Origin: Halobellus rarus
GTDB taxonomy: Archaea; Halobacteriota; Halobacteria; Halobacteriales; Haloferacaceae
Length of the DNA stretch: 64,000 bases
Assembly (NCBI RefSeq): GCF_024494595.1
Contig: NZ_JANHDI010000012.1
Coordinates: 62,001 to 126,000, forward strand
Direction: 5' to 3'
Position 1 is the stretch's first letter, and each line of letters starts with the position of its first letter. Positions 3,966 to 50,609 of the stretch are shown piece by piece. The position numbers were made by a program, and so were the translations under genes. The notes under the pieces are model-generated. The model searched no databases. It was given only the letters and a program-made list of their open reading frames with translations, and had not been told where the DNA came from.

Positions 3966-4616
3966 ATGGCAATCGAAGCCTCATTCACTGTTGAGCAAGC
4001 TGATTTCCCGTTGAGTGCTGTGTTTGAGCAGTTGACGGATGTCACGATCGAGTTAGATCGTATCGTGCCGACGGGCGAGGCAATTATTCCCTACTTTTGG
4101 ATTTCTGCTGATGACACCGATAAACTCACGACCGATCTGAGTGATGATCTCGGGATCGATCAGGTCAAAGTAATCGACCAAGTAGAGAAACAGATGTTCG
4201 TCCGTATTGATTGGAACCTCAACCATGAGAGCATTCTCACGGCAATCGTGAATACTGAGATCACGCTCCTTGCCGGCATCGGGAAGGAAAAGCAGTGGAC
4301 CTTTGAAATCCGAGCAAGCGAGCAACAGGAACTCTCCGACTTTCAGACGTACTGCCAAGACCATAATATCTCGATTGAGCTGACTGAACTCCACGCGGTT
4401 TCATCACTCAGATCTGACCGAGAGTACGATCTCACGGACGGGCAACGGAAAGCGCTGGTACTGGCGTATTCCAGTGGGTACTTTGATTCGCCACGAGACG
4501 CCACGCAAGCCGATCTCGCAGACGAACTTGGGATCACCCGGCAGGCGGTCTCATCACGGTTACAGCGCGGTATGCGACGCCTCGTAGCGAGCTCCCTTAT
4601 CACTCCTGAAGAGTAA
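3966..4616 (+). CDS. Bat-type helix-turn-helix transcription regulator
   Basis: The 216-residue protein is predicted to bind DNA. Its C-terminus (about residues 150-212) is an HTH_10 (bacterio-opsin activator) domain: LTDGQRKALVLAYSSGYFD, then ATQADLADELGITRQAVSSR as the helix-turn-helix, then LQRGMRRLV. The N-terminal 140 residues resemble the sensor part associated with Bat-type regulators; no ligand can be inferred. The gene lies in an AT-richer patch (3.7-5.5 kb) with codon use unlike the surrounding GC-rich genes, for example ATT, TTA and AGT codons. A CTTATTAATTG element lies about 150 nt upstream, so the leader may be long or the promoter different. Targets are unknown. Confidence 0.85.
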   Translation: MAIEASFTVEQADFPLSAVFEQLTDVTIELDRIVPTGEAIIPYFWISADDTDKLTTDLSDDLGIDQVKVIDQVEKQMFVRIDWNLNHESILTAIVNTEITLLAGIGKEKQWTFEIRASEQQELSDFQTYCQDHNISIELTELHAVSSLRSDREYDLTDGQRKALVLAYSSGYFDSPRDATQADLADELGITRQAVSSRLQRGMRRLVASSLITPEE

Positions 4617-49084: not shown

Positions 49085-49798
49085 TTACCCGAGCCGCGAG
49101 AGTCGATCGCGCGCCTGCGAGAGGGCGGCCTCGTCTCCCTCGGTCAGGTACGTGACGAGGTCTCGCGCCGCCCTGACGAGCGCTTCGGATTCCCCGGTCG
49201 GCACGTCCCCGTGCACCGCATCGATGCGTCTGACGTGCGTGTCGATCGTTTCGCGCGCCCGCCCGGCGGCCGGATCGGGGTTGTCGTCGAGCCACGTCCC
49301 GAGGTCCGAACAGAACTCCGAGAGCACCGACGCGTACGCCAGACCTCGTGCGGCGGTCATCGAGTCGGGGACCGACGACGGGGGCGGGCGCTCGCCGTTG
49401 TCGGCGCCGCGGAGCAACTCCAAGACGTACAGACGCGTGGCCTCGTCGGGATCGCGCGTTCGATCGAAGACGTCCACGGCGTGAAGTAGTTCCGCGGCCG
49501 CGAGGACCGTGTCGTCGACCGTCAGGAGGTCCCCGCTGTGCACGAAGCCACGCTGTCGAACGTAGTCCCGAAGCGTCGTTTTCAACTCGTCGGCGACGTC
49601 CCCGATGTCGGCGTCTTCGCCGAGCGCGGCGCGGTGTGCGGAGAGGTCCAGTCCCACGGCGCTGTCGGTGTGTCGCTCCCGGTCACCGACGCCGACGCTC
49701 CGCAGACTCTCGCAATCCGGACAGGAGACGGCTCCCGTCTCGAAGTACGACCACTCCCGCCCGCAGTCCTTGCAACGGCGACGACCACGGATGCGCAT
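49085..49798 (-). CDS. Zinc-ribbon protein with helical C-terminal domain (DUF7117-like)
   Basis: The 237-residue protein starts RIRGRRRCKDCGREWSYFET and GAVSCPDCESLRSVGVGDRE, a CxxC...CxxC zinc ribbon in the first 30 residues. The rest is an all-alpha region of about 190 residues (LKTTLRDYVRQRGFVHSGDL, ETIDTHVRRIDAVHG, LVTYLTEGDEAALSQARDRL). It resembles a haloarchaeal TFIIB-type zinc-ribbon family; the function is unknown. The ATG at 49798 begins with the ribbon and fits the family, and the upstream frame is not used. Confidence 0.78.
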   Translation of the reverse strand: MRIRGRRRCKDCGREWSYFETGAVSCPDCESLRSVGVGDRERHTDSAVGLDLSAHRAALGEDADIGDVADELKTTLRDYVRQRGFVHSGDLLTVDDTVLAAAELLHAVDVFDRTRDPDEATRLYVLELLRGADNGERPPPSSVPDSMTAARGLAYASVLSEFCSDLGTWLDDNPDPAAGRARETIDTHVRRIDAVHGDVPTGESEALVRAARDLVTYLTEGDEAALSQARDRLSRLG

Positions 49799-49881
49799 AC
49801 TCTCATCTATCCACCGAGAGAGAAAAGCGCGTCGCGACGGACGTCCGTCGGAACAGGGCGTCGGAATCTTCGTCGCAGCCG

Positions 49882-49890
49882 ATATATTTA
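49882..49890 (+). promoter_or_regulatory. TATA box of a candidate small RNA
   Basis: ATATATTTA is a strong archaeal TATA match with a purine-rich CCG/GCAGCC stretch just upstream. A start about 26 nt downstream falls near 49912, at the beginning of the first hairpin. No ORF follows closely. Confidence 0.45.
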
Positions 49891-49911
49891 TGTACAGCAG
49901 TCGGTAAGAGG

Positions 49912-50052
49912 CAAGTGACGCTTCGCTTTGGAGGGCCGAAGCGTCAGCGGGGACCAATTCAGGGCGGCAAGCATCCGCGTTTTTCACGCGGCTTGCTTCC
50001 TTTTCGCGTACTGACGAACCCGAGAGTGACACGACGACCCCGAGAGCGTGTC
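49912..50052 (+). ncRNA. Candidate structured small RNA (three hairpins)
   Basis: Three stems lie in order in a 513-nt gene-free region. Hairpin 1 is a perfect 10-bp stem (49916-49925 with 49937-49946) and an 11-nt loop. Hairpin 2 pairs GCAAGC (49967-49972) with GCTTGC (49991-49996), plus an inner CGCG/CGCG stem with a 3-nt asymmetric bulge. Hairpin 3 pairs GACACG (50028-50033) with CGTGTC (50047-50052). A strong TATA box at 49882-49890 precedes them at correct spacing. I do not recognise a known family. The 3' end is unclear and may extend beyond 50100. Confidence 0.4.
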
Positions 50053-50312
50053 CGTCCGTACTGCCGATCGGGCTGAGGCGTCGGCGACGCCAGTTGGCCG
50101 TTTTGCGGGTCTATCAGACGGCCCGACAATCGAGATTCTGTATTTGAATAGACATATTCGCATACTGACTGCGGAGACGTAAGATGATAGATATGTATGT
50201 CGATCCTTCATCGACGGCCTATCGCCGCTCACCGCAGCAACGGGTACTCAAGCCACAACAGAGGTCGACATGTTTATTTTGGAGAACACTAATGTACGAG
50301 TAGAATAAGCAG

Positions 50313-50609
50313 ATGTACGACCTGACAGGATTCCAGCGCGACTTGCTGTACGTGATTGCCGGTCTCGACGAACCGCACGGACTCGCCATCAAAGAGGAAC
50401 TCGAAGAGTACTACGAGAAGGAGATCCACCACGGCCGGCTCTACCCGAACCTGGACACGCTGGTGGAGAAGGGACTCGTCGACAAGGGACAGCGCGACCG
50501 CCGAACGAACTACTACACGCTCACCCGCCGCGGCCGCCGCGAGATCGCCGCGCGGAAGGACTGGGAGAGCACGTACATCAACGTCTCCTTCGACGGCATC
50601 GACGACTGA
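50313..50609 (+). CDS. PadR-family transcription regulator
   Basis: The 98-residue protein is a single PadR winged helix: YDLTGFQRDLLYVIAGLDEP, HGLAIKEELEEYYEKEIHHG, RLYPNLDTLVEKGLVDKGQR and TNYYTLTRRGRREI. There is no long dimerisation helix, as in the short haloarchaeal PadR class. A TATA-like GTTTATTTT (50272-50280) lies upstream. The imperfect palindrome CTAATGTACGAGTAG (50289-50303) covers the expected transcription start and is a plausible autoregulatory operator. It is convergent with the AI-2E-type permease. Confidence 0.92.
   Translation: MYDLTGFQRDLLYVIAGLDEPHGLAIKEELEEYYEKEIHHGRLYPNLDTLVEKGLVDKGQRDRRTNYYTLTRRGRREIAARKDWESTYINVSFDGIDD

Follow-up and report, generated by a model that had tools for sequence, protein, structure and literature searches.

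Described Small RNAs of Haloarchaea

Among the small RNAs of haloarchaea, hts10 of Haloferax volcanii, reportedly first presented by Heyer et al. in 2012, is probably the form in which the RNA family analyzed here has already been glimpsed. It corresponds to HVO_2213s, a 161-nt RNA at 2078656-816 (F) of the H. volcanii chromosome, which was found by sequencing and bioinformatics and is conserved in 18 other haloarchaeal genomes, according to the available part of the report (PMC3956466). After its deletion, the lag on acetate was longer and the yield 87%, the doubling time on glucose at 1.2 M NaCl was 81% (a footnote calls wild-type growth there uneven) with 113% yield, and the yield at 4 M was 89% (PMC3956466). 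In the same partial text, haloarchaeal sRNAs are described as fast-evolving: of 27 deleted genes, 22 occur in H. volcanii alone (PMC3956466).

Several other short intergenic RNAs have been reported from this species. These include sRNA132 and sRNA194, which are haloarchaeal intergenic sRNAs similar in size to the RNA considered below; IG1.7 and Hts4 (PMC6104027); H225.2R, a 96-nt RNA at HVO_1727 that is conserved in 19 other genomes (PMC3956466); and HVO_2908s and H3.2, with similar RNAs in vesicles of Hbt. salinarum (PMC10927574). As given in the accessible portions of the sources, Hts4 is HVO_2019s and occurs in 0 other genomes, IG1.7 overlaps htsf242 (HVO_1933s), the 111-nt intergenic sRNA STRG.2577.4 reaches 905,191 TPM (PMC5892119), and sRNA_61, also of 111 nt, shows high ribosome occupancy without a protein (PMC12482152).

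Gene Organization at the Halobellus rarus Locus

The window, that is, the whole 64-kb stretch of Halobellus rarus DNA that was analyzed, contains a 514-nt gap between a DUF7117 gene (49085-49798, minus strand; PF23430, E 1.3e-97), its divergent upstream neighbor, and a PadR-family regulator gene downstream (50313-50609, plus strand; PF03551, E 1.5e-17). A preliminary description based on the letters of the window had called this gap gene-free and proposed that it holds a structured non-coding RNA with its own promoter, a proposal that the present analysis supports. A small RNA gene of about 92 nt is predicted at 49913-50004 on the plus strand from a covariance model match and a conserved island; model R1 matches positions 49912-50003 at 94.7 bits, the window sequence being part of its training set. 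The 5' end was placed from the distance to the TATA box and a conserved CA at 49912-49913, and the 3' end from a run of T. The open reading frames listed across the gap do not explain the RNA, since the frame differs between species with the length of the loop, in agreement with the earlier statement that no ORF accounts for it.

All elements of the putative gene lie on the plus strand. A BRE-like element, CGATA, is located at 49880-49884, with CG at the same offset in 183 of 206 loci (duplicates counted), and is followed at 49887-49893 by the TATA box TTTATGT (consensus TTTAAGT), with NTTAW at the same offset in 195 of 206 loci (duplicates counted). In a promoter profile of 182 distinct loci, CG occupies positions -39/-38 and TTTAAGT positions -32 to -26 relative to CGCTTCG. 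The TATA box announced in the preliminary description thus exists, its assigned interval of 49882-49890 overlapping the conserved box rather than coinciding with it.

The 5' hairpin (49916-49946) consists of a perfect 10-bp stem (49916-49925/49937-49946), exactly as previously described, and a loop (49926-49936) that carries the invariant GGAGGGC at 49930-49936. It is joined by the single-stranded linker GCGGGGACCAATTC (49947-49960), within which GCGGGGACC is nearly invariant, to a bulged 3' hairpin (49961-50004) with stems at 49961-49964/49999-50002, 49967-49972/49991-49996 and 49976-49980/49986-49990. The bulged stem that had been recognized before lies within 49961-50002, and TTTT at 50001-50004 provides a terminator-like, U-rich end. 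The 3' hairpin was unflagged by a bacterial-type terminator scan.

A third stem had been proposed at 50028-50033/50047-50052. The letters are there, outside the conserved RNA; by eye, the stem is broken in the closest relative (L002), and the other loci are unalignable at this place. The two-hairpin RNA folds with z = -2.33 (6 of 200 shuffles equally good), compared with z = -0.60 (56 of 200 shuffles) once the third stem is included, and 6-bp stems are common by chance (5.1 per 521 nt of the window). The third hairpin was therefore rejected as part of the RNA, which has two conserved hairpins instead of three. Perfect 10-bp stems begin at 8 start positions (4 places) of the 64-kb window versus 0-5 in 8 shuffles. 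Stem counts and folding energy alone are weak evidence for an RNA gene; conservation is strong evidence.

When 12 loci from the genus are aligned, the RNA stands out as nearly identical between flanking stretches that align poorly. A second, unusually conserved island in this alignment is the promoter and start region of PadR (CGAYATGTTTATTTTGGAGAACAC, 50264-50298, plus strand), by which the PadR gene appears to be a transcription unit separate from the sRNA. Upstream of this promoter, at 50151-50201 of the window, GACATATT and GATATGT(ATGTC) motifs are common to most of the 12 loci; their surroundings are unshared, and they are possibly operator sites.

The RNA belongs to no family covered by the tools used, as had been stated before. 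ARAGORN detected 0 tRNA or tmRNA genes in the window, and Rfam 15 gave 0 matches in its 64 kb; with E up to 10, two matches appeared in the gap, both far below threshold and outside the RNA. No Rfam match overlapped the RNA in four further loci (L001, L031, L186, L169). At L186, the locus of the Halocatena halophila sRNA, the leuA-Halobacteria RNA (RF03001, 51.6 bits) is present at 4212-4264.

Distribution and Conserved Core

Of 292 genomes sampled across the class, 289 contain the RNA according to a covariance model built from 48 copies, the misses being G043, G045 and G058. A sample of 148 genomes from the phylum yielded 23 with the RNA, each being the window's own genome or one of the same genus, family or order; among those listed of the 125 genomes without it, one belongs to the same order (G045) and 19 to the same phylum. 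Both searches used strict filters, by which weak matches are lost. A BLAST search with window positions 49860-50110 produced matches in 55 of 60 genomes, own genome counted, and a permissive search of the five negative genomes returned weak matches in four and nothing in one. The carriers among the matches listed include Halorubrum, Haloferax, Natrinema, Haloarcula, Halococcus, Halarchaeum, Natronomonas and Halocatena. Two candidates were rejected: the best weak match (L222, E 1.3e-4) is devoid of the GGAGGGC loop, and a match in Lindowbacteria (L160) is devoid of the linker, about one chance match being expected by rough estimate.

Hardly any variation affects loop and linker (GGAGGGC...AGCGGGGACC): the 26-mer GGAGGGC...GGGGACC is identical in 205 of 207 loci, duplicates counted, part of which had been selected on the first 14 positions of this 26-mer. 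Since loci L083-L090 repeat earlier ones and the locus sets overlap between genome samples, the locus counts are not independent. The nucleotides ahead of GGAGGG in the loop vary in number across the 182 loci (three in 128 + 1, four in 52 and five in one), with CTT (77), TCT (51) and CTTT (46) as the commonest letters. This variation of 3-5 nt shifts the frame, so that no reading frame is kept and the RNA is not coding; a small protein-coding ORF was rejected on this ground and because the core is near-invariant at all positions. On sequence evidence, the RNA constitutes a real and near-universal family of haloarchaeal sRNAs.

Copies and Genomic Neighborhood

A PadR gene lies 245-900 nt downstream of the RNA on the same strand (within 1.1 kb) in 45 of 55 genomes. 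In the other 10 no PadR was found nearby, also by HMM, which recovered 8 of 8 loci with a known PadR as a positive control; one of these loci (L075) has just 395 nt of downstream sequence. Of the 93 loci from named genomes with enough downstream sequence, 53 have PadR and 31 have neither PadR nor DUF5813. DUF5813 is a neighbor at 13 of 117 named-genome loci and at 18 of 90 loci of another set. PadR-linked copies such as that of the window are referred to as type A, and DUF5813-linked copies as type B. BLAST gave two RNA matches in 27 of the 36 genomes from the window's family, and the second copy in the window's own genome sits between DUF5813 and ribosomal protein S8e. In Halarchaeum (L155, L156), PadR is located upstream on the opposite strand (about -440) and not downstream.

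In G430, G230, G301 (genus g102) and G227, 3-6 RNA model matches each were observed, the extra ones being divergent. Plasmid pHLAC01 of Halorubrum lacusprofundi and genus g102 both carry divergent copies, and two divergent extra copies match pHLAC01 at 97% and 89% identity, which suggests that such copies may have been transferred with mobile elements. A plasmid copy of the RNA is also carried by Haloarcula sp. GH36. A pattern at about 1500-1590 of L241 (G291:C2:240561-240652), TTGGAGGGCCACGAACGTCAGCGGGGACC with an altered stem, is a remnant or due to chance. Searches of viral contigs with three patterns and of phage records with two queries each returned 0 copies.

At 7 of 10 divergent copies, the RNA stands back to back with a gene for a 325-aa protein, truncated in one case (L237 421-1398; also L238, L239, L242, L244, L245 and pHLAC01); 69 plasmid records of haloarchaea encode this protein. 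Two of its sequences (one for PDB) gave nothing above cut-off in Pfam, NCBIfam, PADLOC or PDB. As a candidate partner of the RNA it was discarded, eight other plasmids with the protein having no RNA match above 10.2 bits.

Covariation of the Two Helices

As MAFFT fails to align the 3' hairpin across the class, where no pairs were found, covariation was counted in alignable subsets that we picked. In the type-A set (A2, 24 copies), two-sided changes affect 8 of the 16 pairs of the 3' hairpin, with 22 compensatory cells versus a shuffle mean of 7.1; this count was reached by 0 of 500 shuffles and the pair count by 3 of 500. The type-B set (A3, 16 copies) has two-sided changes in 5 of 16 pairs and 14 compensatory cells versus a shuffle mean of 2.9 (reached by 0 of 500 shuffles; pair count by 2 of 500).

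Across the 48 copies of the main family, the 5' stem is free of compensatory change. In a set of 30 copies (A4), to which divergent copies found via five genomes with 3-6 model matches were deliberately added, two-sided changes are present in 4 of its 10 pairs, with 8 compensatory cells versus a shuffle mean of 1.7 (0 of 500 shuffles; pair count 5 of 500; pair types 40 of 500). For example, CUUCG/CGAAG is replaced by CUCCG/CGGAG or CUCUG/CAGAG in divergent copies. The outermost two base pairs of this stem are open in 10 and 8 of 28 rows. All divergent copies retain GGAGGGC, the motif by which they had been cut out, and most retain the linker CAGCGGGGACC, from which L244 and L246 deviate.

These compensatory changes indicate that both stems are RNA helices; in this comparison the constraint falls on the single-stranded parts, the 5' stem being a helix. 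The preliminary description had suggested a covariation check on homologues, and compensatory changes were indeed obtained in both real stems; the pattern it had named as refuting, with flanking genes conserved and stems not, did not occur. A pseudoknot between loop and linker (UUGG/CCAA) is unsupported, the linker position varying without a change in the loop.

Proposed Role and Rival Explanations

The locus is best read, at a probability of roughly 70%, as an independent gene encoding a small non-coding RNA that would act in trans, docking through its 5' half. Transcription would be started by TBP and TFB at about 49913 from the BRE/TATA elements and ended by the 3' hairpin with its U-rich tail. 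The working part would be the 5' half, in which a rigid stem presents the loop UUGGAGGGC, followed by the single-stranded AGCGGGGACC. Given that the stem can be re-paired and loop and linker hardly change, the latter are most likely the docking surface, which would be in two parts and serve a partner common to all haloarchaea. Copies at unrelated loci argue for trans action and against a role in cis. Against the trans-acting reading stand the lack of main-family covariation in the 5' stem, the open outermost pairs of that stem in A4, the differing linkers of L244 and L246, and the negative terminator scan.

In eight duplex comparisons with the genome's own 16S and 23S rRNA, the loop gave -22.4 with 16S versus -22.1 for the best of 25 shuffles, at a place other than the 3' end, and the remaining seven did not beat shuffles; this narrow margin in one of eight comparisons was not taken as evidence of rRNA complementarity. 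For a guide RNA of the box C/D or H/ACA type, with the boxes judged by eye, there was no Rfam match and no convincing rRNA duplex. The PadR mRNA was dismissed as a target, its 5' region giving no pairing signal in 26 loci (mean z 0.16 and 0.40). The complement of a 14-mer from arm and linker, with up to one mismatch, occurs at 167 places in 17 genomes versus 44 for the reversed control, RNA loci counted; among the matches listed, no recurring antisense site of the linker is obvious beyond the RNA loci, the others being scattered. Two extra antisense places were set aside, one consisting of direct repeats at a contig start and the other a stretch devoid of the hairpin, with a 16-bit model match, that looks coding-like by eye. 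A near-invariant core on a re-pairable stem, together with the lack of a single complementary partner, is more in keeping with docking to one invariant partner than with a single mRNA as target. We accordingly favor as partner a protein or RNP, which would be titrated or scaffolded by the RNA, at a little under even odds, a step that builds on these negative searches and has the 14-mer excess and the narrow 16S margin against it.

One specific version of such docking is a class-defining housekeeping RNP, in which the loop UUGGAGGGC and linker AGCGGGGACC would engage a haloarchaeal RNA-binding protein or the translation machinery and the RNA would act as a global titrator. In archaea it might then play the part of 6S or CsrB-type control, with plasmid variants keeping the docking site on a re-paired stem; we regard this version as rather unlikely. 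RNAs of the CsrB type are protein-titrating RNAs with GGA loops. CsrA is reported absent from H. volcanii in the available part of the source (PMC6104027).

The strongest competitor, tentative and somewhat less likely than the protein or RNP partner, is an sRNA that pairs with multiple targets, its G-rich loop and linker acting as seeds on C-rich mRNA stretches and altering translation or decay, possibly with Lsm/SmAP. The layout of two hairpins with a terminator-like end resembles trans-acting sRNAs, a haloarchaeal Lsm binds sRNAs according to the accessible text (PMC3235422), and the excess of 14-mer complements points the same way; however, that excess may reflect codon bias, a seed would need less than a near-invariant 26-mer, and antisense sites do not obviously recur outside the RNA loci among the matches listed. 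The invariant GGAGGG of the loop has also raised the improbable idea of a ribosome-directed RNA that would occupy the 16S 3' end with its GGAGG as a Shine-Dalgarno mimic, in keeping with the ribosome association of other H. volcanii sRNAs (PMC12482152 and PMC6104027, both available in part) and with the loop narrowly beating 25 shuffles against 16S, though elsewhere than at the 3' end. As read off the sequence, just 5 bp (CCUCC) could form with that end, and the other seven rRNA comparisons offered no gain over shuffles.

The frequent PadR gene downstream on the same strand could make the RNA a cis leader or attenuator of that gene, in line with the orphan leader that the preliminary description had considered. 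This is very unlikely: the RNA ends in a terminator-like 3' hairpin with U-rich sequence, a separate conserved promoter island lies before PadR, the 5' region of PadR shows no pairing signal, and copies without a nearby PadR exist, including those of the 10 genomes in which the HMM, with a working control, found none (395 nt of downstream sequence at L075). Least credible is a DNA operator, in which the inverted repeat TGACGCTTCG-N11-CGAAGCGTCA would be a binding site, for example of PadR, and not RNA. The palindrome does lie just 3' of the predicted start and has a PadR neighbor, but the loop varies in length around an asymmetric and invariant GGAGGG, the linker is conserved, and the 3' hairpin covaries.

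Comparison with Known Systems

The link to hts10 comes from gene order. In Haloferax sulfurifontis (L167), an orphan E1-alpha gene is followed by TrkA, an AsnC-type ORF of 80 aa (78 aa counted from its ATG), DUF5813 and the type-B RNA. In H. volcanii, HVO_2209 is oadhA4 (PMC8305020) and HVO_2212 has 78 aa (PMC12850539), as stated in the available parts of these sources; the order at L167 together with these identities implies that HVO_2213 should be DUF5813 and hts10 the type-B RNA. This assignment, carried over from another Haloferax species, is very probable. In Haloferax denitrificans (L169), about 5 kb separate the type-A RNA from an XPG/FEN-type gene, and fen1 of H. volcanii is HVO_2873 (PMC2841640, available in part). 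The places at which the RNA is expected in H. volcanii are HVO_2213 and about 5 kb from fen1; for the type-A copy near fen1, no published name was found in the accessible parts of the literature. Hts4, IG1.7 and H225.2R, as located in the available texts, are at neither place. Identity with this RNA was rejected for sRNA132, found in Haloferax species only (PMC6560208), and for sRNA194, present in 0 other genomes (PMC3956466), both according to partial texts.

The window copy belongs to the PadR-linked type A and hts10, as placed by gene order, to the DUF5813-linked branch; hts10 is listed with 161 nt versus about 100 nt predicted here. Conservation beyond Haloferax was noted for hts10 in 2014, with 18 other genomes (PMC3956466, available in part), and extends to 289 of 292 class genomes in the present sample. 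The mild effect of deleting hts10 may be explained by a remaining second copy. Six pieces of the core sequence matched 0 papers in a search of main texts, and no description of the family extent, the conserved core, the covariation of two helices or the PadR-linked copy was found in the available parts of the literature. The family merits inclusion in Rfam and annotation as a gene throughout the haloarchaea, and its loop and linker offer a defined site for finding the partner.

Bacterial trans-acting sRNAs likewise combine a constant 5' functional module with a variable GC-rich 3' hairpin and a U-rich end, and RNAs of the CsrB type likewise expose GGA in a hairpin loop, of which there is a single one here; the RNA differs from both in its archaeal promoter, and the likeness is not a claim of homology. 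On present evidence, this is no new kind of system but an unusually conserved and tractable RNA. Compared with the fast-evolving sRNAs described in haloarchaea, the family represents the opposite case, being nearly universal among the class genomes sampled and scarcely changing in its core.
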